DNA of 64,000 nucleotides, from the NCBI RefSeq assembly GCF_037975245.1, contig NC_092561.1, positions 5,318,001 through 5,382,000 of the forward strand, in the 5' to 3' direction. The notes under the pieces are model-generated. The model was not told the origin of the DNA. It did not search any database and saw nothing but the letters and a program-made list of their open reading frames with translations. How positions within the stretch are numbered: position 1 is the first letter of the stretch; each line of letters starts with the position of its first letter. Below are positions 9,060 through 64,000 of this stretch, one piece after another. The position numbers and the translations under genes are program-made. This DNA comes from Apostichopus japonicus (taxonomy: Eukaryota > Echinodermata > Holothuroidea > Aspidochirotida > Stichopodidae).

Positions 9060-9234
9060 TGAAATGGTAGTGAGTTGGATATCCAGAACAATGAAAAAAC
9101 TTCCAGCCTCCACCGGGATTCGAACCTGGGCCTCCCGCTTTATATGCGCCCACCCTCACCACCTGGCTATGGGCGTTGATTGTATATCCAGTGTGTTCGA
9201 AACCGATAAGGAAGGTCGTAATTCCACTGTAGGC
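9060..9234 (-). mobile_element. tRNA-derived SINE, minus strand
   Basis: Reverse complement of the SINE at 38138-38310. Both share the 5' leader (..gcctacagtggaattacg..), a tRNA-like head with A box (tagccaggtgg in this copy) and B box GGTTCGAATCC, and a similar AT-rich tail. The tRNA-like part spans about 9106-9177, with acceptor-like ends that pair. Simple (TA)n-like sequence lies beside it at 9239-9266. The anticodon-loop region does not look like a functional tRNA, and the extra conserved flanks point to a SINE. Confidence 0.75.
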
Positions 9235-10589
9235 ATTTGTATATATATATGTTTATATATATATATGGCACATAGTCGGTTCAAAAGACTGCTTTACAAC
9301 CACATTGTACAATAATACAGGCAGGACTAAACCACGTCAGCACACTAAACATTGACAGTGAGTAGTATCCATGTCGTTACATTCCTATCTGTATCATGTG
9401 TACCTCGGTACGATCGACTATCCCATTCCATCAGGAACGTCTTTGACGTGACTCGTTAAAGATTCATTTGGTCAGAGCCTGTGCAGGATCCCCTCAGAGA
9501 TGTAATTGGCTTGTCCACATACTTGTCGTCTCATGGCGATGCTAGTACAGGTCTTCAGAACCCATCACTGAACTGCAGACGGCCTGCGTACGTACGTACG
9601 AGGGTAGTTTTAACGAGGGAAGTTTAACGAGGGAATGACTTACACCTGTGCTGGCGACATCCCTCGGCTTCTAAGGCATCCTACAATATTTCAATTAGGG
9701 TCTTAAGTGGTGGAGGCTGAACTGTTAAAGCAGTATATCATGGTTTCTCTGAATCTGCCTCTAGGCTGTATATATATATTTTGAATTATTGGTCCATAAT
9801 TTAGATCATATACCAGTAGCAATAGTAATTAATAAAAGAAGATGTTATCTGGAAGATGGGTTAGATATTAATCACGTGACTATTTTTTTACAGTTTACAG
9901 AAATAATCCTAACAGTGCAGGCATTAATATGTGCACATTATTTCATTTTTAAGATAAAATGTGCATCAGGTTGTAATTAAACTATCAAAGAATTTTGTGA
10001 GTTGGCAATTATCTGGCTTAATCAATAATCATGTTAAAGTACTGAAGAACCCTTTGTAAATTACCTTTCTAATATATATTCTGTGACCACCATGGTTGGA
10101 TTTCCCTGTAGAGAGATCCAAGAACAGAAAACAACAGAAATTTGTTTGTTACAGTTTATAATGTTTAGAACTTGTAGGGGACATGAAGAATGTTTGGAAA
10201 AACACATAGGGAAATATTACCTTGCATGAGGGTGGCTCAGTGTACAGACGATCTATACACTGTATCATTTGGTATGATGAACAGAAGTAAGGGATGATAC
10301 ATTCATGTTATACATTATCATATTTATAAAGGTATGTATCATTTGTATTAAAGGATCCATGGCTTTAGGCACAAAATATCATTTGGATGTGTTGTGGTCT
10401 AATTATATTACATTGCTATCAGTGCAGAAAAGAGCCTTCAACAAGTGAGGCCCATCAATTGAAGTGGCTGGAAAGTCTAAGATGTGGACCATTGGGTCAG
10501 TTCCTCCAACCATAGTCACTTAAAGCGTGTTAAATTTGACAACAAGATGTGTCATAAACAGCAAATGAGTTGATTGTGATAGTAAAATG

Positions 10590-10995: not shown

Positions 10996-11546
10996 ATATT
11001 ATAAAAAAGCTTTATCTTAAAGGAGAAGGAGGTAATTAAATCATCATCAGTTGACCCACCCCACCACTCCCCTCCCCCCCCCCCCATCGGAAGAGACTTA
11101 GACGCAACATTACATACAAAATGTAGCCTTCCAAAAATGCCTTGAGAAAATTTATATCACAACCCAGTGGTGGTTGTGATGTGCATTTCACATAGAGAGG
11201 ATAGTAGACTTAAATGGCATTGTCTAAAACTTGAATGACATTACACTCAAGGTTAAACATGTGACAAATGTTTCAATAATTTATCATCAATCATGCTATC
11301 CTTTCTTTGTTTTTTTTTCATGGTTGAGACATATTTTCCTAATATTGTTTCTAAAATGAAGCACTAAATCATGTCACCTGACATTGATATTTATAAAATT
11401 TAATATTCACCAAAAAATGTACTTGAAAGGGGCACATAGAACAAATACTAAGAGAATGTTTTACCTCCTGGTGGCTTCACATATTTTTATTATTGAGTCT
11501 GTAGATAAGACTTTTACTGAGCTGCATTTTGTTTTGGGGGAATCAA

Positions 11547-12113
11547 TTTGCTACAGTGTGATAGTGCCATCCACAACCATTGGAGAAGTTTAACATAGGA
11601 AGGTACTATGTTGCTGTAGTCTGTTAGCACCATCCTCTACCATTGGAGGAAATTAAGATATGAAGGTACTATACTGCTACAGTCTGATAGTACCATCCTC
11701 TACCATTGGAGGAAATTAAGATATGAAGGTACTATACTGCTACAGTATGGTAGTACCATCCTCTACCATTGGAGGAAATTCAGATATGAAGGTACTATAC
11801 TGCTACAGTCTGGTAGTACCGTCCTCTACCATTGGAGGAAATTAAGATATGAAGGTACTATACTGCTACAGTCTGATAGTACCATCCTCTACCATTGGAG
11901 GAAATTAAGATATGAAGGTACTATACTGCTACAGTCTGATAGTACCATCCTCTACCATTGGAGGAAATTAAGATATGAAGGTACTATACTGCTACAGTAT
12001 GGTAGTACCATCCTCTACCATTGGAGGAAATTCAGATATGAAGGTACTATACTGCTACAGTATGGTAGTACCATCCTCTACCATTGGAGGAAATTAAGAT
12101 ATCAATGTACTAT
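11547..12113. repeat. Minisatellite, 63-bp unit, about 9 copies
   Basis: Well-preserved tandem array. Each unit runs from ctgctacagt through catcctctaccattggagga to ggtactata, 63 bp in total. The first two copies are diverged and the rest nearly identical. Two variant positions (tctga/tatgg/tctgg near the unit start, aagat/cagat in the middle) are shared among non-adjacent units, which suggests block duplication. The unit length is a multiple of three, but no long open frame crosses the array. Confidence 0.9.
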
Positions 12114-13745
12114 ACTAAATTTCAAATGACATTATGCAATCACCAATTAGTTATATATGTTGTAATGTTGTCAGTTCATGGGAATGCTGTTCATAACATA
12201 GGAGTTGCCTTTGAATTAATTCAGTGGCCTACATCTCCAGTGGGGGATTCAGCCTAAGCTACTGTACCTGATGCGGCGATTAGAGCAAAAGGAAAATTTT
12301 TTGGCGGACAAATACTATAACATTGATATGATGATGGGTCAAAGGAAGGGGGTGTCGGCCTCCCCTTGGGAAATTTTCTACAAGTAAAAATGACAGAGAA
12401 ATGCAAAATGGTGTTATTATTTGACAAGTATGGTACGTTTATACTGTAACTATGGCAGAAATAAATGCACCAAAAGCATGATGCATCCCCTTGGAAACTG
12501 TGTTTACTCATACATATAGGCCTATAGTCTAGGCTTATTGTTGGATGAGCACCAGATTTGGGTGGGGAAACTTGGTGGGGGGGGGGAGCTGCAGGTAAAA
12601 GAAACACGTCCAGATTCTAATGCATTTCATGTTTCTAATACAAACGATAAGCCTAGCTCTAGTTTGGATAAGTAACAGATATGGTTGGGAGGACAACTGG
12701 AGGTGGGAAGGGGAAAATCAGGTGGAATTTCTCCTCCATCCACCCCCCCCCCCCGTAGCACCACCACTCTACATTGATTAGTTTTGATGACACATTAGTG
12801 TAAGAACTGGGCCTCACACATGACTGGTAATGATATATGTTTAAAAGGATGGATTTCACTTGTATAGCGTCATTATGTCCCACAGCTATAAAAAATAGAA
12901 CTGGTGGATACCTTGGAATCTAGCTAGGAGCCAAAGTGGGCTCATCGGTTGGATCAACATTGCATGTCAATGAAAGTGTGGATGTTTAGTGAGATTGCAA
13001 AAACCCTGGACAGAGATTGTTGTGAAGTATTATTTCATATATGTTCATTTATGGATCAATAAATCAATCCTTGTTTTGGATAATGTTATCAATACTGTAT
13101 ATCTAATTTATTTATCATTCAAAGCATTTTTCATATTGTGCACGTGACATGTAATATTCTTGCATATATATACCATATTCTTTTGAGATCAGGTTAGACT
13201 CAAAACAACACTTACCTCATTAGTTGTACTTTCCTTTCCTCTTACTAATTATTTTTTGTGTGTCTAGTTTGTTTTTGTAAAATGCCATAACTTGAGGCGT
13301 GGCATCGATATCTGTATATTTTACAATGTACAAAATTTGCTGAACGTGTCTAAAAGTGCTTGCTAGACAATTTGAGACCCGACTGTGCAAATTTAGTTCT
13401 CAAAACAGCTCAGTGGCGATAAAATCAGTTACATTACTCAAACATGTAAGTAAGGACAGCTAGGTGAAAGGTCTAAGCAGTAAATTATGTTTAATCCTTG
13501 ACCATCAGTGACTATTTTACTTTTATTGGACATGCAGATAGTTCTAAGCACTTTGTAAGTGAGCCATCCCTGAGCTTGATAGCATCTCAGAACCTGAGGA
13601 ACGTTTCACCTTCAGCTGTCTTGCTAGAGATTATTTTGAATATTCAGCTATAGTAATTAAATGATTAGAAGCAATAATTAGAAGCAAATTTGTATATGCA
13701 TTTATCTGTAATATATCTTCTTTCTCTTTCTCTTCTTTCTCATAG
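12114..13745. other. Intron sequence with GC-rich repeat debris
   Basis: 12240-12600 and 12690-12780 carry G- and C-homopolymers and sequence typical of the MITE debris in this genome (a cttggtgggggggg stretch and a ccaccccccc stretch). I could not pair terminal repeats here. The 117-codon minus-strand frame at 12254-12607 falls in this debris and is not called a gene. Confidence 0.35.
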
Positions 13746-38137: not shown

Positions 38138-38310
38138 CGCCTACAGTGGAATTACGACCTTCCTTACCGGTTTCGAACCTCTGGACATACAATCAGCGTC
38201 CATAGCCTAGTGGTTAGGGTGTCCGCGTACAGAGCGGAAGGCCCGTGGTTCGAATCCCGGTGGAGGCTGAAAGTTTTTTCACTGTTCTTGATTTTCCAAC
38301 TCATTACGAT
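38138..38310 (+). mobile_element. tRNA-derived SINE
   Basis: It has a leader shared with the minus-strand copy at 9060-9234 (gcctacagtggaattacg), then a tRNA-like head at about 38195-38268 with A box TAGCCTAGTGG (38203-38213) and B box GGTTCGAATCC (38247-38257), then a tail starting gctgaaagttttttcactg. The ends of the head pair as an acceptor stem with one mismatch. The loop would give an ACA anticodon, not used by normal cysteine tRNAs, so a SINE is favoured over a tRNA gene. It sits just upstream of a (TA)n tract and an LRR pseudogene. Confidence 0.8.
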
Positions 38311-38476: not shown

Positions 38477-39374
38477 CACGCTCACAGACCTGAAACTGAC
38501 CTGTGAAGAGATATGTGATTACGATGATTGGTTTGATCGGTCAAGATGCGACAATAAAGAGTACTAGAATTACAGGACAATAATATTTCAGCAGCTCAAC
38601 CGTAACAGCACGCAAGGATACAGCAACGTTCAAACTTTAGATCTCGCCCATAACAGTGTATCGGTCGTTGAAGTTGGTACGTTTGATAACACACCGGATC
38701 TTCGATTCCTTCTGCTTTCACACAACAACTTGAAAGAAATACAAGTGGGTTCTTTTACAGAAATGAAATTCGTAGAAAGACTAAATAAGCCATCCGTAGA
38801 CATGTTCTCAGTAACCTAACAAAAGCAATGACCATTTATTTTGATGATAATCAAATTCACTTTCTTGAGAAATGTAGCTTTATTAGACCCTTGCGAGTAC
38901 GAAGGCTTTGTTTGAGCAATAACAAAATGTCTGACTACTCGACAAAGAAATATTCAGAAATGTGTCCAGTTAGATCCCCATCAAAATCAAATGATTACTA
39001 TTACTCTGTTTAAGGTCTGTATTTTCGGATAACAGAATAACAACCAACTCGTTACCAATTCATCTGGGAGTCATTTTTCCTTTAGACTTGATTGATGTAC
39101 ATAACACTACTATTACGCAATCAGAAAGTACCGTGCCGTATATTCATTTTACTAAAAGTTTTCTGTGTGGTGGGAATCCCTATATATTTGTGACTGGGCG
39201 TTCATTAAACTACAATCACTGTTTAAGAATATATTTCATCTCAGAATCACGATTTCTATTCACATTCAAGTCAAATATCTTGCATATGCAAGGCAAGATG
39301 TGATCTTTGAAGTGGATCAACCGTTGCCATCTTCTTGAACTGAAGATGGTGAAATGATATAAATGACGTCACAA
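38477..39374 (+). pseudogene. Decayed LRR receptor-like gene copy
   Basis: Closely related at DNA level to 40857-41837 of the intact LRR gene. It keeps the LRRNT start (..LKLTCEEICDYDDWFDRSRC..), several LRR segments and traces of the LRRCT. It is broken by a deletion of about 45-50 nt after the LRRNT region (after 38560), a deletion and stop around 38780-38810, further indels near 38930-39010, and loss of the LRRCT cysteines. The signal peptide and transmembrane parts are absent or unrecognisable. Similarity to the intact gene fades after the gatataaatgacgtcac stretch. It is in the same orientation as the other LRR copies. Confidence 0.85.
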
Positions 39375-39950: not shown

Positions 39951-40723
39951 GTTTGGTGATCAAGCCATATGAATTTCAAACATAGTTGGAGAACCCTTCA
40001 CTTCAACTTTGGTGTTTAAGTTGTCTTTTTTCCACGTGGTTTAAGCTATTGGATTGGTGCTTACATAAAATTATTATTTAATTGAAAACATTGATCCTAT
40101 CCATTTTTTTAATATTTTTTATATATCCTGCTGTTTCATTCGTAAACTGTATATGACCGATTATCTAAGACAGTCTTGATGGGGATAAGCGGAATAGATG
40201 AACATATTATATATTCAGATACCTGCAGGCCTTTTCTTAAAAAATCAAAATTTACTTGGTGTATATAGATTGTATAAAACTCAGTACACAAATTAGCTTT
40301 GGTATTTCTCTGTAACATGGCGGCTACTACGTATATGATAAGTATATTATACGGTTGATTTCCGTATAAAAATAATCTGCGTCAATGTTTAACCTAGAGA
40401 GAGATTCGGGGAAATAATGTTGATGCTTTTTACGTCCTATGTCGTTTCCATCCTGGTAGAAGAATCTAGAATCAAATTTGTCTAAAGAAGTACAAAACGT
40501 TTGATCTCACAGCATTCTCTGGCGCAACTTAGGAATTCACCATTCATCATTAAATTATTAATACTAGATGAAAACCTTCTTTGGGTGCATTGTAACTTAA
40601 ATGCACCTTTACATGGGTTAAAGGATTTTCATAATGTAGGCCTAATATCACGTTAATGTATAAATCAATTTCACTGATTTTTTTTTGTACATTTTCAGCG
40701 GCAAAGAACTATTCAAGGGTAAA

Positions 40724-42166
40724 ATGGCAACTGTTTCCATATGGAGAAGCAAATGGTTCACTATTTGTTGCATCGTCAGCGGTAAGTTACTGGCAACGTC
40801 TTCTGCTCCGAGTCCATCGACTATCGATTTGGCTCAGCCTGCTGAGCATTTTAACAACACGCTCACGGACCTGAAACTGACCTGTGGAGAGATATGTGGT
40901 TATGATGATTATCTTGATCGGGCACGATGCGACGATAAAGGCCTACTCCGTGTCCCAAACGCCAATGGATGTGAAAATGCAAGAGTGCTGGAATTACAGG
41001 ACAATAATATTCAACAACTCAACGGTAACAGCACGCAAGGATACAGCAAAGTTCAAACTTTATATCTCGGCCACAACAGTGTATCGGTCGTTGAAGTTGG
41101 AACGTTTGATAACACACCGCATCTTCGAAACCTTCTGCTTTCACACAACAACTTGAAAGAAATACAAGTGGGTTCTTTTACAGAAACGAAATTTATAGAA
41201 AGTCTTTATCTAGAACATAACAAATTAGAAGCGATCCGTGAACATGTTTTCAGTAACCTAACAAAAGCAATTACCATTTATTTTGATAATAATCAAATTC
41301 GCTTTCTGGAGAAATGTAGCTTTAATGGACTGTTGCGACTACGAAGGCTTTGTTTGAGCAATAACAAAATTTCTGAACTCGACGAAGAAATATTCAGAAA
41401 TGTGTCTAGTCTGGTTACATTAGATCTCCATCAAAATCAACTGATTTCTCTTCCTCGTGGTCTGTTTGAGGGTTTGCATTTTCTGAGACGAGTAATTCTG
41501 TCCGATAACAGAATAACAACCATCCCGTTACCAATTCATCTGGGAATCACTTCTCCTTTAGAGTTGATGGATGCGCGTAACAATGATATTTTGCAATTAG
41601 AAAGTATCCTGCCGTATATTCATGTGACTGAAAGGTTTCTGTTCGGTGGGAATCCCTATATTTGTGACTGTACGTTCATTACACTACAATCACTGTTCAA
41701 GAATAATTTATTCCTAGAACAAGTAATGTATATACGTTCAAGTCCTGTAACTTGCATGTGGCAATATGCCAACTTTGAAGTAGATGAGCCGTTGCCATTT
41801 GATTGCCCTGAAGATGGTACATTGATAAATGACGTCACCACAGCAACACCACAAGACTTAACGGGTCCTTCACAGAGAACTGAGTCGCATTTTACTGGAG
41901 AAATATCAGCTGAGAGCAAAACAATTGCTTACGTTGGTAATACAGTTAAAACTGATCAGATGGAGCCGACGGATCCTAGAGTTAGACCTCCGATATGTGA
42001 CTGGTTAATCATATACTGTTCAGTCCTAATAACACTTATTCTTGCGTCTCTAATCTACTTCGTCAAGAGTTTACGTTGCCAATCAATACCAATGACCCGC
42101 GTTTCAGGACTAGAACACTCCCTTTTGGACTCAAAATATACCGGTGCTGTGGCTGAGTGGATATAA
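40724..42166 (+). CDS. LRR single-pass membrane protein (intact exon)
   Basis: A 480-residue frame from the ATG at 40724. It lies in an exon whose acceptor tttcag ends at 40699; an upstream leader exon could extend the N-terminus in frame. Residues 1-28 look like a signal peptide; an LRRNT-type cap has Cys 54, 58, 69 and 83; about eight LRRs (LxxLxLxxN pattern) span 86-290; an LRRCT has Cys 314, 316, 344 and 361 (NPYICDC start). A Thr/Ser-rich stalk follows, then a transmembrane helix at about 427-447 and a short cytoplasmic tail without TIR or kinase domain. The architecture suggests a cell-surface recognition or adhesion protein; the ligand is unknown. The last 20 residues arise by read-through into tRNA-like SINE sequence. 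An AATAAA lies at 42882-42887. Confidence 0.85.
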   Translation: MATVSIWRSKWFTICCIVSGKLLATSSAPSPSTIDLAQPAEHFNNTLTDLKLTCGEICGYDDYLDRARCDDKGLLRVPNANGCENARVLELQDNNIQQLNGNSTQGYSKVQTLYLGHNSVSVVEVGTFDNTPHLRNLLLSHNNLKEIQVGSFTETKFIESLYLEHNKLEAIREHVFSNLTKAITIYFDNNQIRFLEKCSFNGLLRLRRLCLSNNKISELDEEIFRNVSSLVTLDLHQNQLISLPRGLFEGLHFLRRVILSDNRITTIPLPIHLGITSPLELMDARNNDILQLESILPYIHVTERFLFGGNPYICDCTFITLQSLFKNNLFLEQVMYIRSSPVTCMWQYANFEVDEPLPFDCPEDGTLINDVTTATPQDLTGPSQRTESHFTGEISAESKTIAYVGNTVKTDQMEPTDPRVRPPICDWLIIYCSVLITLILASLIYFVKSLRCQSIPMTRVSGLEHSLLDSKYTGAVAEWI

Positions 42167-42300
42167 AGGCGGTGGCATTTGAAGCAATGAGGCTTAGCAG
42201 ACGGGAGGTTTATTCCGGGTTTGATACCCGGCAGTGTCATGGTAAGGTGGGTTTTTCATCCAAGAGCAATCTACGGTTTTCCCATCTGAAATGACTTTCT
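42131..42300 (+). mobile_element. tRNA-Ser/Leu-like SINE overlapping the LRR stop codon
   Basis: A tRNA-like head with A box TGGCTGAGTGG (42150-42160) and degraded B box GGTTTGATACC (42218-42228). It is followed by a gtgggtttttcatcc..cggttttcccat stretch similar to the conserved core of some invertebrate SINEs. The copy at 57932-58100 lies in the duplicated block and is better preserved. The head overlaps the C-terminal codons of the LRR gene and provides its TAA. Confidence 0.65.
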
Positions 42301-45167
42301 AAGTTGAAAACATTCCAAATTTTAGTTTAAAATGTTGAATTGGAAGCCACATGACGTGTAAGTTGTAATCCATACGCCCTTGAATGTTTCTTCCACATTT
42401 GTGGTCGCTATAAGCGTCGTAAAAATAACTGCTGGTTAATATCATATTGTTATTAGTATTAGCATTATCAAATTCGAGTCTAATTTTCAATGGATTAGCT
42501 CTGACCTGCACTCTCTTCCATGTAGTTTATCAAGGCCACATAGTTATCTTGATGCAGCATTGTGAGTTGATTTGTAACTTTTCGGCACTTTAACGGCGCA
42601 ATTTATATATATTCACACATAACTGATTCATTCTAACTAAGAGTGTTGTTCGGTATACAAAAGCTTTATAAAAACCAAAATTAACTAGTTAGTTCCCTTT
42701 TAATCCTGGACAGAAACCGGACAAAACTATGTGCTCCAGAAATTTGATGTCATACGCAGACGTTTAAATATGTTCATTTGTTTTAAATACAATAACTGTC
42801 TTTAGATTGCTGAATATCGGACGGATGTTCATCAGAATTCGATCCCTATATCATGCGCAAGTATTAACAGTGAAATAATGTAATAAAATAATCAAAGATG
42901 AAAATATTGTAAAACGGTTTCATTTAATACATGGGACGCGGAGCAATACCTCTCATCACAATACGGCAGGTTTTTTTTTTCAAGGACAACAGTGAATATT
43001 TCAAAATGGGTGTGTTATCTGGACTGATGCAGCAGACAGGCAAAATGTAGCCTTGCCCTCTCAGGTGACTCAGATATAGTGAACAATATATGTTAATGAA
43101 AGAAACTGCAATCGTATATGTACATGCATCCAATGACCATGTAGATGAACCAGGGAAGCGGTGAAGCCAACTACAATGACATATCAGTACTTGGATAGGT
43201 GCCATTCAGATGTCACTGTATATATGATCATTGCAGACATGTCAATATTTCCCTTTTGTCACAAAAGTTCCTCCCACGAGTAGTCTTTATCGTTCTTTTT
43301 AAGAGTTTATTACCTTGCTGCTCACGACATGTTTACACTCGTGAATTATTATTTTTTTTTGGTTTATTCTATAAAACTCGATATAACCCCGTTGTGGATG
43401 GTGTTTAAGTATAATCTTTCATGCATTTGTAATAAGTAACATATATACCTTCGCATGAAATTACAACAAGGAAGTTGCAGAAAAGAGATGTTGAGTCAAA
43501 ATACGTTTTTATCTCTTATTTTATACAGTGGTGTTTCCAATTTATATTTGAGTTGTGGTATAAAATTTGTGTGACATTAAATAGACCACTATCGACTACG
43601 TCTCAACGTAAGTCAGAGATGTTGACACAAAATAAGCAGTTGCTCTTTATTAACGAGTTCTTGACAATTCAATCCATCATAATATTTTTTCATTTAATAT
43701 TTTCCATGGTTCGATGTGGCAAACCAAGTTGGAAGATTTTGCGAACTGTTATGTTTTCCTGTTGTGATTTTGCTGAACAAATGAGCACACATTAGGTGTA
43801 TTTTCCTTCGTATAACAGTAAAGTGTGCTACAAACCGACATGCAGGTTAAAATAACAAACTGGCTAATAGACCCCATCCCTACACGCTACTGCTATCAGA
43901 TAGGATTGCCTGTAATGAAAAAGTGCTTTCGTATATTCTCAACTGTGTACAATCAACTGAACAACTTGCAGATCTTTTGCCCCCTTCGGCCATCCGTTCT
44001 TTGACTTGCCCCATTTTATAAAGGTGTGGGTATATTGTAAAAGGTGTGGTATATACTGTAGCAACAATTAATGCCCACCTATGTGGTTTATTATATCAAG
44101 GAGCACAGTAGTGCCTCTCCTTATCATTCACGATGCACCATCATCATTTACGTACGTGATTATGATACGAATAAAAAACTGACTTAAGCAAACTAAAATA
44201 ATGTGATTCTCTTTTGGGAAATACCACTGTTTGTGTGATTCCTTTTGTAGTCAGTGTAGAACGAAGACTTGCACAAGGCAATAATGGCATCACAGAGATA
44301 CTGTACGTGAAGTGCTTGCCATTAATTGTTAAATTATTCCCGCCGTCATTATCCTCATTTGTTAATTGCTTCTTCTTTCGTTTGACGTTTGAATGAATGT
44401 TGCAGCAATCGCACAATACAAGGAAGTTGTACGTATGTACATCATACTTACATTGATATAGGCATGCATCTATTGCGAAACTTCAAACTGCTAATTCTCT
44501 TAACATGAAACTATGCAAATAAAAGGGAAGCGATAGTGCGAGATTGAGAGAGCTCTCATGTCTAGAGTGATATATTGCACATTGACAAAAACATAAGCAC
44601 TATAAGATAAGGTGTGAACACTGATATCTTCCAAATGACAAGATTTCTCCTAGCTGTTGGTAGCATTGTTTATCATTAGTCATCCTTTTATATATGAATC
44701 TTACGACTTCAAAACACATGCCTATTACTTTTAATACAAATCCAGACAATTGATTTTTGATAGTTCTCATTTAGCTAATCATATTAATGTGAGTTTGGCC
44801 TTCCGTGAAACTACTCAGTTGTCATCAGGCTGCGGACCATCACACTCTCACTCTGACGTAGCAGTTTAGCACACCTATTACGTAATATTTCTTTCTGTGT
44901 TGGTTAAATACATTTGTTTCAGTACCGACCACAATCCACCAGTGGTGTACTAGAGTAGGCTCCTCCTTTTAAACGAGTAGCAAGTGTTTCGGACTAATGA
45001 GGAATTAATGTCAAGTTACTGCTTTTTGGTGACCGAGAATAGCCTACCAAGTATATTACCGGTGTGTAACACGGTAATTGCTGACGTGTTGCAATGAGTT
45101 TCACAATGAAACATGTGACGTTTGCAATGTGGGTATCCAATGTGAAATCGCCTACGCTTCCGCACCA

Positions 45168-45204
45168 TATATAGGCCGATGACACTAGAACTTGATTCAG
45201 TTTC
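45168..45204 (+). promoter_or_regulatory. Candidate core promoter, copy A (TATA and initiator)
   Basis: TATATA at 45168-45173 is followed 31 bp later by an initiator-like TTCAGTTT with its A at 45199, the canonical spacing. It lies in the 277-bp block that is identical to copy B. A short leader with ATG and splice donor follows. Inferred from sequence layout only. Confidence 0.5.
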
Positions 45205-45259
45205 TTGAAAGACACTACATATTTCACTCCTTCAACACTAGCCTCCGCTGGAACACAAC

Positions 45260-45294
45260 ATGGGCTGTCACAACAATTATCAAGACACGTACAC
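45260..45294 (+). CDS. Candidate leader exon of an LRR gene, copy A
   Basis: ATG at 45260 has A at -3 and G at +4. Eleven codons (MGCHNNYQDTY) plus two bases precede the donor GTAAGC at 45295. The exon would begin at about 45199. Its leftover phase is exactly that needed by the acceptor before 51552, giving an in-frame N-terminus ahead of the signal-peptide-like segment of the LRR paralogue. The acceptor before 40700 in the intact gene has the same phase. The intron would be 6.3 kb and contain the MITE, LINE and other insertions. The antisense strand also carries an open frame (44994-45302), which I treat as a shadow. No transcript evidence. Confidence 0.45.
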
Positions 45295-46004
45295 GTAAGC
45301 ATAAAAAATGATTAAAAGTAGGCCTAGCCTAGTATTTGAGGTACTGGTCAGTAATTATATGTCCGTGAGGTTCACGTATATGTTACCATTATAAATATAC
45401 TTCGGGGGTTCTACTGGCAGTTGCAATTAAAGAATATCTTATTCTCGGCACCGGAGACTTACATTTCCGCGGTGAAGTTACATGACAGTTCTATGTGGTG
45501 ACTATAACGAAATATGTACTCAAGAAATACGTTTCAAGCGCAGACTATCAGCGTTTGGCAGACTGTCAGCAGACCACTGGAGGGGCAAGAAAGAACGAGA
45601 AAAAGGGATATGAGTCGAAGTGATTTAAATCTGACTCATTGGAAGTACTTCTTAATTACTTCAGTATAGCCATTGGGGTTGTTAAACACGTGCATCGGAT
45701 TGGCGCGCTATGTGTATAGGCCGTATAATCGTAAATTGAGTAGCCCTTCATCAAGCATAACACTGTCACAACTGAATTTAAGCCAAGCCCTAAGCCTAAC
45801 GAGTAATGTCAGTACTATTCGGTAGCTTTCGTGAAGTTCGTAAGTTACAACGGGAACAATAAGTCAGGGGTAAGAAAACCCCAAAGAGGTGCTCTAAAAC
45901 AATCGAATTCCAAGTTGGAGATTATCAATATACTTCGTTATACTAAGAACTGTAAACTACCATTAACTTGTTGCCAGACCTTAGGCTTAATATTGCAGTG
46001 TCTA

Positions 46005-47469: not shown

Positions 47470-50345
47470 TTATACCTGTGGAGGTTCCATCACACCTATT
47501 CCAGCCTCCTCCTCCACTTCTTCCGATCCTTTGCCTCTCTCAAACAAAACATCACACCTTTCCCAGTCCAACGTCTTTCAGCCGTGAGGCCTTAGGCCGA
47601 CCTCTACCCCTGGTTCCTTCAACCGTTCCGTGCATAACCGTATGAGCCAACGTCCCCGATCTCTACCCCTGGTTCCTTCAACCGTTCCGTGCATAACCGT
47701 ATGAGCCAACGTCCCCGATCTCCTGGGTATGTGCCCAAACCATTGTATTTTTCTTCTGCGCGCGACTTCTAATAATATTCGTCGATAAGTCTTTTTATTT
47801 TCTGCTTCCACGTGATTCCGAGGATTCTTATAAAACAATGGAGTTCGAATGCCATTAATCTCTTTTCCATCCTCTTATTGTTTGTCCATGTCTCACATCC
47901 GTACAGAGCAATGGAAACGATTAGTGTTTAAGGGGTTTTACCTTTGTTGAAGTGGATCTCCTTTTGGAGTTCCACAGCTCATTTTATTTTCGTAAATTGA
48001 CTCGTTGCTATGGCAAGTCTTTTCTTTATCTCGGAATTTGATGTGACATCTTCGTTCAATGTTGAGCCAAGGAACAGAAAGGTCTTCCCTTCTTGTAGTG
48101 TTTTTCCATCCACTTTTATCGATGCATCATTGGTATCAATCAAACTTGAGGTGACCACCATGTGAAGTATCTGTTCCCTTTCGAGGTGAATGTTGGCTCT
48201 TCCTGGGTGACTTTTCTTAAAAAGTACCATTATTTTACTCTCGTCTACACTTATCCCCATACCATAACTACTAGCCGTCGTCTCCAGCCTATTGGTGAGA
48301 ATTTCTAATTCTTTCCTCGAGCCTGCAATGTGATCAATAAAAATCATCAGCAAATTTTAGATTTGATATCCGTCGACCACCAACTTTAACAGTCCCTGCG
48401 AAGTCTTCAAATACATCTGACATAATCTGTTCCAAACAGATGTATACGTACATGGGCACAAGATGCAACCTTGGCGGACTCCAACCGTCGTTTGGAACCA
48501 ATCTAAAGTGATGCTGTTAGTAGTTAACACCACATTAATATTGTTGTTGTATTGTGCTTCAATCACTTTGATTAGCCCAGAGCCCATATTGCACTTCTCC
48601 AAACTCTGTCAAATACCTTCTTAAAGTCAATTAAGTCGTGGTTTAGTTCCATTTTGATGGTTTCTGTATTTCTCTCCCAAATTCTCACATTTGCTATCTG
48701 TTCTACAGTTCTCCGATCACATCTAAATCCAGCTTGTTCTTCTGATAAAATACTTTCAGCCTTTAATTTTATTCTGTTACTGATAAATCTTAGCAAGACC
48801 TTGCTAGGGTGACCGATGAGACTTATGGTTCTATAGTTGTTACAATTCTTCAAGTCTCCTTTCTTTTGGGAGTGGCACAGCCGCAGTGATGTTCACCATT
48901 GTGACGGCCATTCTCCCTTACTCCATACAGAGTTGCAGTTCTTGTGCAAAACTTCAATGGTACTGTGTCCCCCACTTTTGATAAGTTCCGATGGTATGTT
49001 ATCAAAACCTGCCGCTATTCCATTCTTTTTACCACACTCTTCATCGTAGTACTTTGTGACTTTCAACTCTCTTCTTTTATCACTTTTCTTCCATATTTGT
49101 GCGGTCATCCATTGTTGTTTTATTTTCCTTTCTTCTCCTAGCCTTTCCAAATCCAATGTTACAAACCTTCCGTCAACTTGTATTCTGAAGGTTTTATAAA
49201 TGCAGTCCTGAGTCTATCAGTTCTCAATATTGAATTTTCACCCGGGTTGTTGGAAACTTCCGGGTTTTCTTCAGCTTCATGCTCAGTGTTACCATAACAA
49301 GGTTATGGTCGCTACCAATATATGCTCCTGGGCAGGATCTTGTCTTGTGACCATTTATGCCACTGGTACCTACACTTCTCATCTACCAGGATGAAATATA
49401 TATATAATTCCTTGTTGTGCCGTCTGTGACTCTTCTCGGTATCATGTGTTTGTTCCGCGTAGTTGCCAATTACCATGTTGTGCAGTCTTGCAAATTCCAT
49501 TAATCGAAGTCCTTTTTCATTTTTTTCATTTGTAGATCCCAGAACATATTTACCAGCTGTTCCCGCCCAATCCTCATGAGCAACCGTCCCAATCTTTGAC
49601 TTCTAGTCACCTTGGATAACAAGGATATCTTTATTTGCGATGTTTTTCATGATTGTTTCTAATTCACTGTAAAATAAATCTATTTCATCGTCATTTGAAT
49701 CCGAAGTTGGATCATAAACCTGTATGAAAGATAGATTCCTTGGTGATACGTTTATTTTGATTCTTAGAATTCTGCTTGAGACCGGTTCACATTCCATCAC
49801 TGATTTTACATAGTCCTTGTGCACCATGAACTCTTCTCCTCCTTTTTATGTCTCTTTTCATTTTCACTCCACCAAACTTTATGTCCTTCATCTACTACCA
49901 CTTCTCCAGTATTCAACCATCTCATTTCAGCAATGCCCAATATGTTCCTTTATACTTTTGCATCTCATGTTCTAGTTCGTTCAGTTAACCATCAGCAGAC
50001 AGAGTTCTTACGTTCCACGTCCCGATGGCAACGTCTTGTTTGCAAATTTCAGTTTCATTTTTGGTTTCTCTCCAGTAGTCCATTGTTCGAAGCTCCCATC
50101 CTGTTGAGTGCCAATGGAAGACGTGGTCGTTGGTGACCCGGGCCTCGACCGATCCGGTATGGTGTAGGTTTTGTGTGTACTCATCATTGTGTTTCAATAG
50201 GCAAGAAATCCTCTCCAGATATGGATGGCCGTTGGCTCCTGGTGGAGCTCATCCGCCCTTTGTCAGTCTTATTTTTAATCCTGCTGGGTGTCCACACACC
50301 CTCCTCACAGCAGTCCGGGGACTGAAGTGGGGGAGGCGGTTTAGT
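47470..50345 (-). mobile_element. Degenerate RTE-like LINE, minus strand, nearly full length
   Basis: Reading 5' to 3' on the minus strand: a GC-rich 5' leader (about 50340-50200); an endonuclease start (..IGTWNVRTL.., about 50000); endonuclease middle pieces (49827-49603, 49500-49312); reverse transcriptase with SEEQAGFR and LIDFKKVFDRVW (48853-48572), VRQGCIL (48602-48357) and an FADD box near 48350; then the connector (48353-47979) and the C-terminal GHIPRRSG..HGTVEGTRGR region (47838-47578). It is broken by several stops and frameshifts, so it is inactive. A 59-bp segment near the 3' end is tandemly duplicated (47602-47660, 47661-47719). Most similar in style to the HmRTE/CFDP2-like group. 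Confidence 0.85.

Positions 50346-51054: not shown

Positions 51055-51106
<52 letters not shown>
51055..51106. repeat. (TA)n microsatellite
   Basis: About 26 TA dinucleotides immediately left of the left arm of the inverted repeat. Confidence 0.9.
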
Positions 51107-51108
<2 letters not shown>

Positions 51109-51171
51109 CTATGTGCCACCACTCTCGTCCTGCGCACAACACAATACAACGGCAATAGAATAAAGTACACC

Positions 51172-51259
<88 letters not shown>

Positions 51260-51307
51260 GCGTTGTATTGTGTTGTGCGCAGGACGAGAGTGGTGGCACA
51301 TAGTTAT
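51105..51307. repeat. 47-bp perfect inverted repeat around (TA)n
   Basis: Left arm 51105-51151 and right arm 51261-51307 are perfect reverse complements over 47 bp (right arm starts CGTTGTATTGTGTTGTGCGC). The arms are separated by a 109-bp loop that is mostly TA repeat (51173-51257). A second TA tract abuts the left arm outside. It lies 245 bp upstream of the LRR paralogue's second exon. Confidence 0.9.
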
Positions 51308-51551
51308 TCTGGAAGTCTTTTGCTGGCTTGGCGATAGATAAATTGGCTAGGTGTCAGTAGTATTGTAAGCCCCTAGCCTATCAATTTGGTCTAAACATAA
51401 AATTGTTCTAATAAATCATTTTATTGTTTGGGTTATACAAAATCCCCTTCTTGTAGCGGCGAATGAGTAAATGCCAAATTCTCATCATCGTCAAAGAAGG
51501 ACTGATTTCGCAGAAGAGAGTCAAATCAACAAACCCATGTCATCTTTACAG

Positions 51552-52903
51552 GCGAAAATATGACTGTTTCGGGAGAGCGGGGTTCGATAGAGGATGGTTG
51601 ATACTGGGATGGATGGCCATGATTGCTGCAGTTGTGGCAGCCCATCCCTCCTCTGCTCCTCCAGCGGAGCCTCCAAGATTGACATGTGGAAATGCTTGCG
51701 GCTACGATGACTGGTTTGATCGTGCTCATTGTAATAACCGGAATCTTTCCGTGGTTCCAATAGTGGATGGCTGCGATGCTGTGCAAGTTCTGGAAGTTCA
51801 GGGGAACCACATTAGTCGAATCTCTAGTGACTGTTTGGAAGGTTACAGATATGTGACCAGCCTTGACGCATCAGAAAATGTCATTGCTGTGATAGAGCCA
51901 GGAGCATTCGCAGGGTTACCTGAAATGGAACACTTGTTGCTTTTCCAAAACGAAATAACCGTACTTCAAAATGACACTTTTATGGGTACAATAATGTTAT
52001 CTTCAATCAATTTGAATCAAAACAAGATCGTAGAAAACTAAATTAACATCGATTTCCTTCAGCAATAATCGTATATCGCACTTGGCACGGAATATATTTC
52101 AAGGATTGTTTAAATTAAAAGATCTGTCAGTTAGTAATAATGAATTGGTTGAAATTGAAGAAGACCTCTTCAAAGGTCTTCTTAGAGTAAGTAGCATAAA
52201 TCTTAATGGTAATAGACTCGTAAATATACCTTCGGGTCTCTTTAATGGCCTTACGGCATTACAGAGTGTTTACCTATCTAATAATAGGTTAGTATCGATT
52301 CCTGCCCCAACTCAGCTAGGGCTCACCTCTGGCTTAATGGTGATAGTCTTACAAGACAACAGCATTACCGAAGCCTCGGATATCATTCCATATATGGATT
52401 TATCAGAAAGTTTCTTCTTTGGCGGCAATAAGTTTCGGTGTGATTGTGATTTTGCCACAGTTCAAGAGTTATATTTCAACAACTCTTTTCACGAACAACC
52501 GGGTTATAATCAAGCAATCCAAGTAACATGCATTTCGGGAGAAAGATCTTTCCCGATTGATCAACCACTACCGGTGGAGTTTTGCCCAGAGAATGGAGAA
52601 ATGAACGATGAAGTTCCAATTACATCAACAATTATTGTACCAGAGTCGCGTGGAATATCCGTGCAGACAAGCTCTGAGTCTTACGTCAACGTGACGTCAG
52701 ATAACGACCTGCTTCAGAATTCTGCAGATCCTTGTATTTGTAAATGTCCATGTGACACCTCTGATGTACAGGTATCTATCACTTTCTCTGATTGGTTATT
52801 TATATACATTGCTAGTATAGTAACACTTCACGTCATATGGCAATTATGGAAGAAAGTTAGTGGTTTATACAATTCTTCTAAGGAGTATGCTATCGACATT
52901 TAA
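51552..52903 (+). pseudogene. LRR membrane protein paralogue with frameshifting deletion
   Basis: The exon starts after acceptor ctttacag (51551). Phase joins it to the candidate leader exon at 45260-45294; alternatively the ATG at 51613 starts translation. Then come a hydrophobic signal-like segment (..WLILGWMAMIAAVVAA), an LRRNT with C-x3-C and the GYDDWFDRAHC motif, and LRRs. The frame stops at 52039-52041 and resumes in another frame (52046 on) in the middle of an LRR. About 10 residues and the frame are lost compared with the repeat period and with the gene at 40724. The second part has more LRRs, an LRRCT (RCDCDF..), a stalk with the cysteine-dense CICKCPC motif, a transmembrane helix near 52790-52850 and a short tail. 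AATAAA hexamers lie at 53132 and 53189. An assembly error is possible. Confidence 0.8.
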
Positions 52904-57655: not shown

Positions 57656-57915
57656 TATCACCAAACTTAACGGATCCTTCAAAGAGAACTGAGTCGCAAT
57701 TTACTGGAGAGGTATCAACTGAGAGCAAAACAATTGCGTACGTTGGTAATACAGTTAAAACTGATCAGATGGAGCCGACGGATCCTGGAGTTAGACCTCC
57801 GATATATGACTGGTTGATCGTATACTGTTCAGTCATAATAACACTTGTTCTTGCGTCTTTAATCTACTTCGTCAAGAGTTTATGTTGCCAATTAATACCA
57901 ATTACTCGCGTTTAA
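57656..57915 (+). pseudogene. LRR gene stalk/transmembrane fragment
   Basis: An open frame closely matching residues 378-460 of the LRR protein at 40724: Thr/Ser stalk (..SKRTESQFTGEVSTESK..), transmembrane helix (YDWLIVYCSVIITLVLASLIYFVK) and tail ending ITRV then TAA at 57913-57915. The signal peptide and all LRRs are missing; the MITE lies immediately upstream. It has no substitution that breaks the frame, so duplication is recent or the frame is under some constraint. It shows the ancestral stop that the intact gene has lost. Confidence 0.85.
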
Positions 57916-57931
57916 GGACCTGTATGGACTC

Positions 57932-58100
57932 AAAATATACCGATGCTGTGGCCGAGTGGATGAAGGCGGTGGCATTTGAAGCAATGAGGCTTAGCAATCG
58001 GGAGGTTCCAGGTTCGAAATCCGGCCGTGTCATAGTAAGGTGGGTTTTTCATCCAAGAGCAATCTACGGTTTTCCCATCTGAAATGACTTTCTAAGTTGA
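57932..58100 (+). mobile_element. tRNA-Ser/Leu-like SINE, copy in duplication B
   Basis: A box TGGCCGAGTGG (57949-57959) and B box GGTTCGAAATCC (58011-58022), followed by the same gtgggtttttcatcc core as at 42131-42300. The anticodon arm pairs poorly, so it is not a functional tRNA gene. Confidence 0.65.
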
Positions 58101-61013
58101 AAACATTCCAAATTTGAGTTTAAAATGTTGAATTAGAAGCCACCCGACGTGTTAGTTGTAATCCATAAGCCCTTGAATGTTTCTTTCACATTTGTGGTCG
58201 CTTAAGCGTCGCAAAAATAACTGCTGGTTATTATCATATTATTATTAGTTTGAGTATTATCAAATTGAGTCTAATTTTCAATGGACTAGCTCTGACCTGC
58301 ACTCTCCTTCAGGTAGTTTATCAAGGCCACATACCGTAGTTATCTTGATGCAGCATTGTGAGTTGATTTGTAACTTTTCGTCAGTTTAAAGGCGCAATTT
58401 ATATATATTCACACATAACTGATTCATTCTAACTAAGAGTATTGTTCGTTACAAAAGCTTTATAAAATCATAGTTGAGTAGTTAGTTCCCTTTTAATCCT
58501 GGACAGAAACCGGACAAAACTATATGTGCTCCAGAAATTTGATGCCATACGCAGACGTTTTATTACAATACCATATATTCATATGCTTTAAAATTATACA
58601 ACAAATGTCTTTACATTGCTGAATATCGGACGGATTTTCATCAGAATTCGATCCCTATATCATGCGCAAGTTTTAACAGTGAAATAATGTAATAAAATAA
58701 TAAAAGATGAACTATTGTAAAACGGTTTCATTTAATACATGGGACGCGGAGCAACACCTCTCATCACAATACGGCAGTTTTTTTTGTCAACGACAACAGT
58801 GAATATTTCAAAATAGGTGTGTTGTCTGGACTGGTGCAGCAGACAGGCAAAGGGTAGCCCTGCCCTCTCAGGTGACTCAGATAGAGTGAACAATATATAT
58901 GTTAATGAAAGAAACTGCAATCGTATATGTACATGCATGCAATGACCATGCAGATGAACCAACCTAGGGAAGCGGTGAAGCCAGCTACAATGACATATCA
59001 GTACTTGGATATAGGTACCATTCAGATGTCACTGTATATGATCATTACAGACATGTCAATATTCCCTTTTATCACAAAAGTTCCTCCCACGAGTAATCTT
59101 TATCGTTCTTTTTAAGAGTTTATTACCTTGCTGCTCACGACTACATGTTTGCACTCGTGAATTCAAATGTTCTTATTCTATGTTACTCGATATAAGTATA
59201 ATCTTTCATTCATTTGTAATAAGTAACATACCTTCGCATAAAATTACAACAAGGAAGTTGCAGAACAGAGATGTTGAGTCAAAATACGTTTTTAACTCTT
59301 GTTTTATACAGTGATGTTTCCAATTTATATTTGAGTTGTGGTATAATTTTTTTTTATGTTATTCAATAGAACATAATCGACTACGTCGCAACGTAAGTCA
59401 GAAATGTTGACACAAAAAAAGCAGTTGCTTTTTATTATCGAGTTCTTGACAATTCAATCCATCATGATATTTTGCTCATTTAATATTTTCCATGGTTCGA
59501 TGTGGCGAACCAAGTTCGAAGATTTTGCGAACTGTTATATTTACCTGTTGTGATTTTGATGAACAAATGAGCACACATTAGGTGTATGTTCCTTCGCATA
59601 ACAGTAAGGTGTGCTACAACCCGACATGCATGTTTAAATGACAAACTGGCTAATAGACCCCATCCCTACACACTACTGCTATCAGATACGATTACCTGCA
59701 AAGAAAAAGTGCTTTTGTATTTTCAACTGTGTACAATAAAATGAACCGCATGCAGACCTTTTTGCCCCTTTCGGTCATCCGTACTTTAATTGCCCCCATT
59801 TTAAAAGGACTAAAACAACTAAAATAACTTGATTCTCTTTGGGAAATACCACTGTTTGTGTGATTCCTATTGAAGTCATTGTAGAACGAAGACTTACACA
59901 AAGTAATAATGGCATCACAGAGGCACTGCGCGTTAAATTATTCCCACCGTCATTTTCCTCATTTGTAAATGGCTTCTTCTTTTGTTTGGCGTTTGAATAT
60001 ATGTGGCTGCAATCGCAAAATACAAGGAAGTTGGACGTATGTACATCATACTTACATTGATGTAGGCATGCATCTATTGCGAAATGATATGTTACAAACT
60101 GATAATGCTGTTAACATGAAAATATGAAGAAAAAAAGGGAAGCGATAGTGCGAGATTGAGGTCTCTCTCATGTCTAGAGTTATATATTGCTCATTGACAA
60201 AAACATAAGCACACTTCAAGATAGGGTGCGAACCATGATATCTTCCAAATAACAAGATTTCTCCTAGCTGTTGGTGGTATTGTTTATCATAAATTATCCT
60301 GTCAAATATGAATGTTACGACTTCACAACACATACCTATTACATTAATACAAATCCAGACAATTGATTATTTGATGGTTCTCATTTAGCTGTCATATTAA
60401 TGTGAGTTTGGCCTTCCGTGAAACTACTCTGTTGTCATATGACTGTGGACCAGCACACTCTCACTCTGACGTAGTAGTTTAGCACACCTATTACGTAATA
60501 TTTCTTTTCTGTGTTGGTTAGTGTTGACTGTGAAATACATTTGTTTCAATACCGACCACAATCTACCAGTGGTGTACTAGAGTATAGGCTCCTCCTTTTA
60601 TACGAGTAGCAAGTGTTTCCGATAATGAGGAACTAATGCCCAGTTACTGCTTTTTGGTGACCGAGAATAGCCTACCAAGTATATACCGGTATCTGAGTAC
60701 ATCACTTTGGAAACCATAGCCTATATTGGAATCTATATATATATTGCAAAATGTCCAAAATATGAAAAATTCAACTATCGTGGACGAGATTTTGCCGGGA
60801 AACACGAAAATAGTAAAACTCTGAAAAATGTTAATTAAGTTGCGTACTTGGTTCATTGAACTAATGTACAAAACGGGGATTTTCAAATTTTTGAGGCGAA
60901 ATGCTAAGTGTGTAAAACGGTAATTGCTGACTTGTTGCAATGAGTTTCGCTATGACACATGTGACGTTTGCAATGTGGGTATCCAATGTGAAATCGCCTA
61001 CGCTTCCGCACCA

Positions 61014-61050
61014 TATATAGGCCGATGACACTAGAACTTGATTCAGTTTC
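61014..61050 (+). promoter_or_regulatory. Candidate core promoter, copy B
   Basis: TATATA at 61014-61019 and initiator-like TTCAGTTT with its A at 61045, the same 31-bp spacing as copy A. It lies inside the 277-bp identical block (60957-61233). Confidence 0.5.
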
Positions 61051-61105
61051 TTGAAAGACACTACATATTTCACTCCTTCAACACTAGCCTCCGCTGGAAC
61101 ACAAC

Positions 61106-61140
61106 ATGGGCTGTCACAACAATTATCAAGACACGTACAC
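61106..61140 (+). CDS. Candidate leader exon of an LRR gene, copy B
   Basis: Same as 45260-45294: ATG at 61106, eleven codons plus two bases, donor GTAAGC at 61141. The second exon would lie beyond the right end of the window, which cannot be checked here. Confidence 0.4.
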
Positions 61141-61439
61141 GTAAGCATAAAAAATGATTAAAAGTAGGCCTAGCCTAGTATTTGAGGTACTGGTCAGTAA
61201 TTATATGTCCGTGAGGTTCACGTATATGTTACCGCTATAAAAATACTTCGGGGGTTCTATTGGCAGTTGCAATTACAGAATATCTCATTCTTGGGACCGC
61301 AGATTTACATTTCCGTGGTGAATTTTACGTGACAGTTCTATGTGGTGAGTATAAGAGAAAAGGGGATATGAGTCGAAGTGATTTAAATCTGACTCAATTA
61401 AAGCTAGCTGGTAAACGCAACCTTATCTATTGTACTTCG

Positions 61440-62655
61440 TAATTTACTTCAGTATAGCCAAGTGGTTTGTTAAACACGTGCATCGGATTGCTGCACTATG
61501 TCACATAGTATATGTATAGGCCCTATAATGGTAAACTTTAGTAGGACGTTATACATTAAAGAAATAGGTTAGGTGTCACAAATGTTTATCTTATATGAAA
61601 GAGGACAATAAAAGAAACCCAATAGTGAATAAATTATTCAAATATCTTTTTCCGTTTAGGAGATATTCAAGTTTAAATATCTATCTGTTTGTGTAGAAAC
61701 TGCTGAAATCAGACTAGCTGTGACGTCATATACTCACATTCCTGAAAAGTCTTTGTTATTTTATTAAAATATTTTGTAAGATTTTATGACTTACAACCAA
61801 AATATACGTCAGGAGATCTCTTATGTGTCAAGGGAAGTATTTGAGATTTAACATCTGAAGAATGTTTGATTATATATTTTTTTAGATTTGCGAAAAAATG
61901 TAATTATTTTTTAATGAAATATATTGACACATGTTAAGGAAGTGAAGATGTGACATCACACCCTCACAGTTAGTCTTTCTACACCAGTCATTGGCAAAGA
62001 AATTTTGAAATCTTCAAAGTGTGATATCTCCTTAACAGAGCATGCTATCATGGTAGTTTCTTCACTGTTCTGTTTGTCTTATTAAGCTCTTTCATACAAG
62101 ATAGACATGTCAGACACCTGAACCAATCCTTTAAGAACTTCATCTAGCATCGCGCTGTCACAACTGTATTTAAACCACGTGCACATAAGCCTGATGAGTG
62201 ACATCAGTACTATTCAGTAGTTTTCGTGAAGTTTGCATGTTACAACGGGAATAATAAGTCAGGGGTTCTAGAAACAATATATGTAGCCTATCATATTCCC
62301 AATCGCCGCTTAGTAAGCCTAGCTTCCGCATAAAGAATCATGGACGTTAAATATTGACATTGACATCACTAATTTCTATCATCAATTAAATACAAACATG
62401 TTGAACGTAACATTTTTAAGCTCACGGATAGCACAATTCATTATAGAGACAAAATTCGTTGAATGGGTATATACTTAGATAAATCAAGATTCAATGGAAA
62501 TGGAGAAAAAAGAAGCAAAATGCTTATAAATACTTCCCCAGTTATATATCTGTCTATACATGTATTACAGTGAAGGTAAATTGGTGATGGCAACATTAAT
62601 TGTAAAATAAACAGAAAACACTAAAAAAAAACACAGATATTGTGGCTTAGAGAGA
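61440..62655. other. End of duplication and AT-rich spacer
   Basis: About 600 bp (61540-62150) absent from copy A, then the end of the duplicated block near 62265 and AT-rich spacer to the LINE. No gene seen. Confidence 0.45.
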
Positions 62656-62659
62656 ATGA

Positions 62660-64000
62660 GACGGTGTATAACTTAGTTTGAACAATCATCAGCATAGGCT
62701 GTCAGGAAATTCTTTTTAAGTCTTTCATTAAACAAACTTAATGTAACAGCAGATTTAATAGTGTTATCCAATGAATTCCAAATTTCAACACCAGAGAAGG
62801 AAATAGAATTTGTTTTTTCTTTGTTCTTGCATAATTAAAATAAAAATTGTCATAAAATCTCTTGTTGTTACTAAGAACAAAATAGTTTTGCAAAGTTGAT
62901 GGCAGACTATTATGAAAAGCTTTATATATACATGAAAATACTTGTATTGAAATCAATAATATCAAAAAATTTAAGTGGTCGTAACTTATGAAATAGTAGG
63001 GAAGTATGGTCCAAATATTTAGCATGACAGACAATATGAATAGCCTTTTTCTTTTTAAAAATAATGGATGCACATTGGTTTTGTAAGTGTTACCCCATGC
63101 TTTCATACAATAATTCAAATAAGGAAGGGAAAAAGCACAATATAAAGAACACAGAGCATGGGTGTTAAGAACATTGCTAACTTTGTAAATAGCACCGATA
63201 CTTTTGGAAAGTTTACTTGAAATATGGGAAATGTGATCTTTCCAGGAAAGTTTACAATTAAGGAACACACCGAGAAACTTGACACAATTAACTTGGTCAA
63301 TTTCTAAACCATCTATGGTAATGTTGACCTTGTTACATGTGGTATGGTTGGAGAAAATCATTTAATTCGTTTTGTTTACATTCAATGATAATTTATTAAG
63401 GGCAAACCATTTTGCTTAACTCCTGATATTCGGTACTGACCAAATTACATAATGATTTGATATCACTATGACTGCAAAATATATTTGTGTCATCTGCGAA
63501 CAAAATAAAATTCAATATATTGGTAACATTGCAAATATCATTCAAGTACAAAATGAGTAGTTTAGGTCTAAGGATTGATCCTTGCGGAACCCACACAATA
63601 CATTAAATAAACCAGACTTTTTATTGTTAACTTGAACATATTCCGGCTTGATAAAAAGCTTGAGAGCCAATTATGGATAATACCACGACAACCATAATGA
63701 TTTAATTTTTTAAGTAAGATATTATGATCAATTGTATCGAAAGCTTTTTTCAAATCTATAAATACCCCAACCGCTGCTTGGTCTAAAGAAGATGTAATTT
63801 TATCAACAAGTTCAAGTATTGCCATATTAGCGGACCTACCGGACCGGAAATCATATTGGTTCTCAGAAAGAATATTATGCTTGCCAATGAAATCATGTAA
63901 CCGTACAACAAGAATTTTTGAAAACTGTGGAAGCAATGAAATACTTCTATAATTATTGAATGTTTTCCTATCTCCAGTTTTATAGATAGGAATGACTTTA
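62660..64000 (-). mobile_element. Degenerate jockey/CR1-like LINE, minus strand, cut by window edge
   Basis: Minus-strand frames give, in order, reverse transcriptase palm pieces: ..LSENQYDFRSGRS.. and VFIDLKKAFDTIDHNILL (63936-63568), VPQGSILRP and FILFADDTNIF (63596-63396), then the thumb/connector (..VKFLGVFLNCKLSWKDHI.., 63361-62738), and in another frame ..EIWNSLDNTIKSAVTLSLFNERLKK.. to a stop near 62675. FADD is intact. At least three frame changes make it inactive. The 5' part lies beyond the window. Confidence 0.85.

Follow-up and report, generated by a model that had tools for sequence, protein, structure and literature searches.

The window, by which we mean the whole stretch of 64,000 nucleotides of Apostichopus japonicus DNA that was analysed, has a G+C content of 36% and contains LRR genes on the plus strand. 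These are:

40699..42166, plus strand: LRR exon 2 of gene 1, an open frame with a C-terminal hydrophobic (TM) helix (tblastn, Pfam)
51552..52903, plus strand: LRR exon 2 of gene 2, with a C-terminal hydrophobic helix and a frame broken near 52030-52040 (Pfam, tblastn)
38477..39372, plus strand: gene-1-like LRR pseudogene (tblastn, repeat comparison)

Gene 2 is a diverged relative of gene 1, and at the break in its frame, near 52030-52040, about 26 nt are missing by comparison with gene 1 (tblastn coordinates). The LRR exons have Pfam LRR_8 matches; by eye, the LRRs have a cysteine-rich cap at either end, and Pfam cap models were not matched. In gene 1 the frame goes on for only 33 residues past the hydrophobic helix. 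Unlike in a Toll-like receptor, the Pfam matches of gene 1 and of two pieces of gene 2 include no TIR domain. A PDB sequence search with the LRR part gave 306 matches at E 0.001 or better, and among the best 60 of these are the acid-labile subunit, LGR4, chondroadherin and VLR, which have the LRR solenoid in common with the genes described here. The best matched stretches of these extracellular LRR proteins lie within the LRR part, and the resemblance is not taken as an assignment of orthology. In viral_contigs, where records from the own genome may be left out, there were no exact matches to the leader DNA described below, and of four stretches fitting the peptide pattern of gene 1 relatives none was confirmed by tblastn. 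A tRNA-like stretch, recognised by eye at 42140-42240 and at 57930-58040, runs across the end of gene 1, and the last residues of that frame may be of SINE origin. About 245 bp ahead of exon 2 of gene 2 there is an inverted repeat (51105-51307), hairpin- or MITE-like, with 44-base identical arms around a (TA)n tract.

Several other elements are found in the window. LINE-like remnants lie on the minus strand at 62741-63999 and 47581-49845, with RVT_1 matches at 63571-63999 and 48575-48892; the remaining open pieces scanned in these two regions gave no reverse-transcriptase match. At 11486-12178 there is a tandem array with a 63-bp unit, which includes an open plus-strand frame (11620-12126) with a repeated 21-residue motif. 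The Rfam and tRNA scans of the window found only one element, at 38195-38269, which is tRNA-like (tRNA-Cys in ARAGORN, anticodon printed as aca; 50 bits with the Rfam tRNA model) and is possibly the head of a SINE. A diverged inverted copy of this region is present at 9062-9240.

The 3' end of gene 1 belongs to a tandem segmental duplication, and near the right end of each copy lies the block that is the subject of this analysis:

41852..45510, plus strand: duplication copy A, spanning the stretch between the gene 1 3' end and the block, both included (alignment to copy B)
57662..61357, plus strand: duplication copy B, opening with what is left of a gene-1-like LRR gene, its truncated 3' end
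45111..45387, plus strand: identical block, copy A, predicted to hold a proximal promoter, a leader exon and the first 93 bp of an intron (0/277 against copy B; run significance)
60957..61233, plus strand: identical block, copy B (base-for-base match to copy A)

An earlier note on this DNA had claimed that 45111-45387 and 60957-61233 are identical over 277 bp while the sequence just outside differs every few bases. The identity is exact, with 0 of 277 differences in a direct base comparison. The immediate flanks differ at 5 of 49 bases on the left side (45062-45110, the closest being 45110, 45105 and 45103) and at 10 of 82 on the right side (45388-45469, the closest being 45388, 45389 and 45396). 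Over their full length, with 259 mismatches among 3413 aligned bases, the duplicates agree at about 92% of aligned bases, so that the contrast is one of 100% against about 92%. Mismatches crowd the edges of the block: the nearest 8 bp on the left and the nearest 9 bp on the right have three each. The block is also the longest run of identity in the alignment, and the runner-up is 81 bp. When each gap is counted as one event, the duplicates differ by 301 events over 3455 positions; the longest run in 20,000 permutations was 163, and under an overdispersed local-rate null it was 198 in 20,000 simulations, so 277 was never reached in either case, and the analytic expectation for such a run is about 3e-9. 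The identity over 277 bp is beyond chance. Outside the block 33 of 104 CpG positions are changed, and of the 10 CpG within it none is. CpG density as such is uninformative (252 of 1275 stretches of 277 bp have at least as many). No third close copy of the block was found in the 64 kb, including upstream of gene 1. Close to the left edge of the block, copy B of the duplication has an insertion of 218 bp (60690-60907).

In tblastn at E 1e-3 or better, copy A of the block is followed downstream by the LRR exon of gene 2 and a 3' gene fragment at 57664-57918, and downstream of copy B no LRR exon was found up to the end of the window. Of the gene-1-like gene at the start of duplication copy B, tblastn found only the 3' end at that place, and the frame of this gene stops sooner than that of gene 1, at the codon corresponding to 42104. 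The tail that it shares with gene 1 (85 codons, with one stop pair dropped) shows 15 changes in 193.5 nonsynonymous sites and 5 in 58.5 synonymous sites, which gives pN 0.078 and pS 0.085. On these few changes the drift of the tail is near-neutral, and the roughly 8% divergence of the duplicates is therefore a fair neutral yardstick.

Within the block, motifs of a promoter and a short first exon follow each other in order:

45168..45173, plus strand: TATA box TATATA, 31 bp ahead of the initiator A (motif scan)
45197..45203, plus strand: initiator TCAGTTT, with A(+1) at 45199 (motif scan)
45199..45294, plus strand: predicted leader exon of copy A, with a 5' UTR of 61 nt and 35 coding nt (motif order, prediction)
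61045..61140, plus strand: predicted leader exon of copy B, with its ATG at 61106 and donor at 61141 (motif order, prediction)

The TATATA at 45168 and the TCAGTTT around 45199 fit the consensuses of a TATA box and an initiator. The ATG at 45260 has A at -3 and G at +4, and in copy A the donor AC|GTAAGC is at 45295. A core promoter followed by an ATG in good context, an open frame and a donor, in this sequence, occurs only in the two block copies when both strands of the window are scanned; in 300 shuffles of 64 kb, one strand each, the same arrangement occurred 9 times. The TATA-initiator pair alone has 3 sites on the plus strand and 2 on the minus strand, against 1.11 per strand in shuffles, and the spacing that marks a promoter is thus present but is weak evidence when taken alone. 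A looser scan that did without the initiator gave five plus-strand matches, two of which are the block copies, and none on the minus strand (background 0.275 matches per one-strand shuffle, 40 shuffles); among the three matches outside the block, two have their ATG and donor in common. The anatomy supports the reading of the block as a putative promoter with a short first exon.

Further downstream, each block copy is followed by what appears to be an older and decayed version of the same sequence:

45746..45871, plus strand: relic A, a decayed older copy of the leader exon and intron start, downstream of block copy A (profile, pairwise comparison)
62138..62266, plus strand: relic B, likewise, downstream of block copy B (profile, pairwise comparison)

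With a profile made from the two relics, the blocks score 22.1 and 18.9 bits, and 20 shuffled windows reach 5.3 at most. When the search is turned round and starts from the block alone, relic B reaches 16.3 bits (best shuffled 7.2) and relic A is not among the matches listed. In a pairwise shuffle test none of 300 shuffles was as good as relic B against the block, and 33 of 300 were as good as relic A, which is not significant. Both relics lack the ATG and the donor GT at the corresponding places, and to judge by their sequence they are a picture of a leader that is free to drift.

The leader has 35 coding bases and ends in phase 2, which matches the exon 2 acceptors of both gene 1 and gene 2, and its reading frame runs on into exon 2 of both. 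Two such matches would be expected by chance about once in 9 cases. Joined to the leader, gene 2 would have a hydrophobic, signal-peptide-like stretch at residues 26-44, so that a start from the leader lies 25 residues ahead of this segment. Gene 1 has an ATG of its own at 40724. Gene 2 without the leader has one at 51463, which is in frame and lies in an open stretch that reaches back to 51457, and therefore the leader is not strictly needed by either gene. Its use by the LRR genes is plausible on these grounds, and not compulsory. The earlier note had named TATATA, an A 31 bp later, an ATG and a GTAAGC donor, all of which are where it placed them, and it had described the phase correctly as fitting the LRR second exons. 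Its reading of the block as promoter and first exon agrees with the order of the motifs, but no block can be recognised ahead of gene 1, the gene with the open frame, within the window, and the frame of gene 2, the presumed target of copy A, is broken.

Interlocus gene conversion between tandem duplicates leaves a short perfect tract in diverged surroundings, with differences that restart at once. The block resembles this closely in its short perfect tract and its abrupt edges; here there are two copies only, and phylogeny can therefore neither separate conversion from selection nor name the donor or the direction. We consider the likeliest cause of the identity to be a recent conversion of this kind, in which one copy replaced the other, with a probability of roughly 0.58, a figure that applies to the explanation as a whole, the promoter-leader nature of the block as well as the conversion. 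The block would hold the proximal promoter, the leader exon and the 5' end of intron 1 in a tandem family of two-exon transmembrane LRR genes, with copy A feeding gene 2 (exon 2 at 51552, an intron of about 6.3 kb) and copy B feeding one that lies outside the window. Divergence of the two copies by about 8%, like that of the remainder of the duplicated unit, would have come first, and a short conversion would then have overwritten one of them over a tract of at least 277 bp, bounded by the mismatches at 45110 and 45388. Within diverged duplicates, an identity run that exceeds chance (277 against 163 in permutations) points to conversion, as do the edges of the tract, which do not follow functional boundaries and lie 57 bp upstream of the TATA box and 93 bp into the predicted intron.

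The earlier note had left open whether selection or gene conversion keeps the block identical, and the evidence leans to the latter, with a uniform zero throughout and abrupt edges. Purifying selection alone, acting on the promoter, leader and early intron of two genes that need the same regulation, is unlikely. In its favour, the block falls on what may plausibly be a core promoter and exon, and beyond it the decayed older leader copies no longer have an ATG or a donor. Against a background of 8.7% difference events, however, 0 of 277 demands constraint on almost every base, and all parts of the block are equally unchanged (upstream 0/57, TATA region 0/31, 5' UTR 0/61, leader coding sequence 0/35, intron 0/93), the 93 intronic bases included. 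Differences restart directly at both edges. Conversion is also favoured because the frame of gene 2, the one gene seen downstream of a block copy, is broken, so that selection on the promoter of this gene would be weaker, and because the gene tail is near-neutral. The unchanged CpG positions of the block, set against those changed outside it, likewise speak for conversion.

It is less probable still that the assembly placed one consensus of a near-identical repeat at both positions; the block is short and lies within a duplicated region, as such an artefact would, but the window is without any N and both flanks are resolved as distinct. Just as improbable is that the block is kept for a coding exon on the minus strand or for some other element that is not a promoter, the promoter-like order being due to chance. 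A minus-strand frame is indeed open through the block, with 105 aa in copy A and 98 aa in copy B. Such a frame is unremarkable, since the six frames of the window contain 92 stop-to-stop frames of at least 80 aa, and beyond the block the translations of the two copies show several residue differences before they cease to match altogether, near the insertion in copy B. As for other elements, Rfam at gathering scores reports only a tRNA, which lies elsewhere.

Among known systems, the Sp185/333 (SpTransformer) genes of the purple sea urchin are similar in that, as described in parts of PMC3091723, they have two exons of which the first is a leader, and they too show tandem segmental duplication, with conserved proximal flanks and abrupt loss of similarity outside. 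Gene conversion is discussed by those authors (PMC3091723), and boundaries formed by microsatellites are a feature of that family. In contrast to Sp185/333, the second exon here encodes LRRs and a hydrophobic helix and not the Sp185/333 element mosaic, to which it is unrelated, the predicted intron has a length of some 6 kb, and the identical tract comprises only the promoter, leader and early intron. Among the papers listed in literature searches, going by the openings of their abstracts, none describes LRR families with converted promoter-leader blocks, and such a case may still have been published.

Conversion is common in tandem gene families, and in this respect the case is one of ordinary gene-family evolution. 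It is a compact one, in which a predicted promoter and first exon are identical and the rest of the duplicate drifts. A broader idea, which we regard as improbable, is that conversion repeatedly homogenises a promoter-leader cassette among the members of a tandem LRR receptor array, and that the LRR exons behind the cassette diversify meanwhile. If that were true, the cassette would keep co-regulation and secretion constant under a changing repertoire of ectodomains, and if more members of the array share it, this would amount to a testable case of regulatory homogenisation coupled to receptor diversification.
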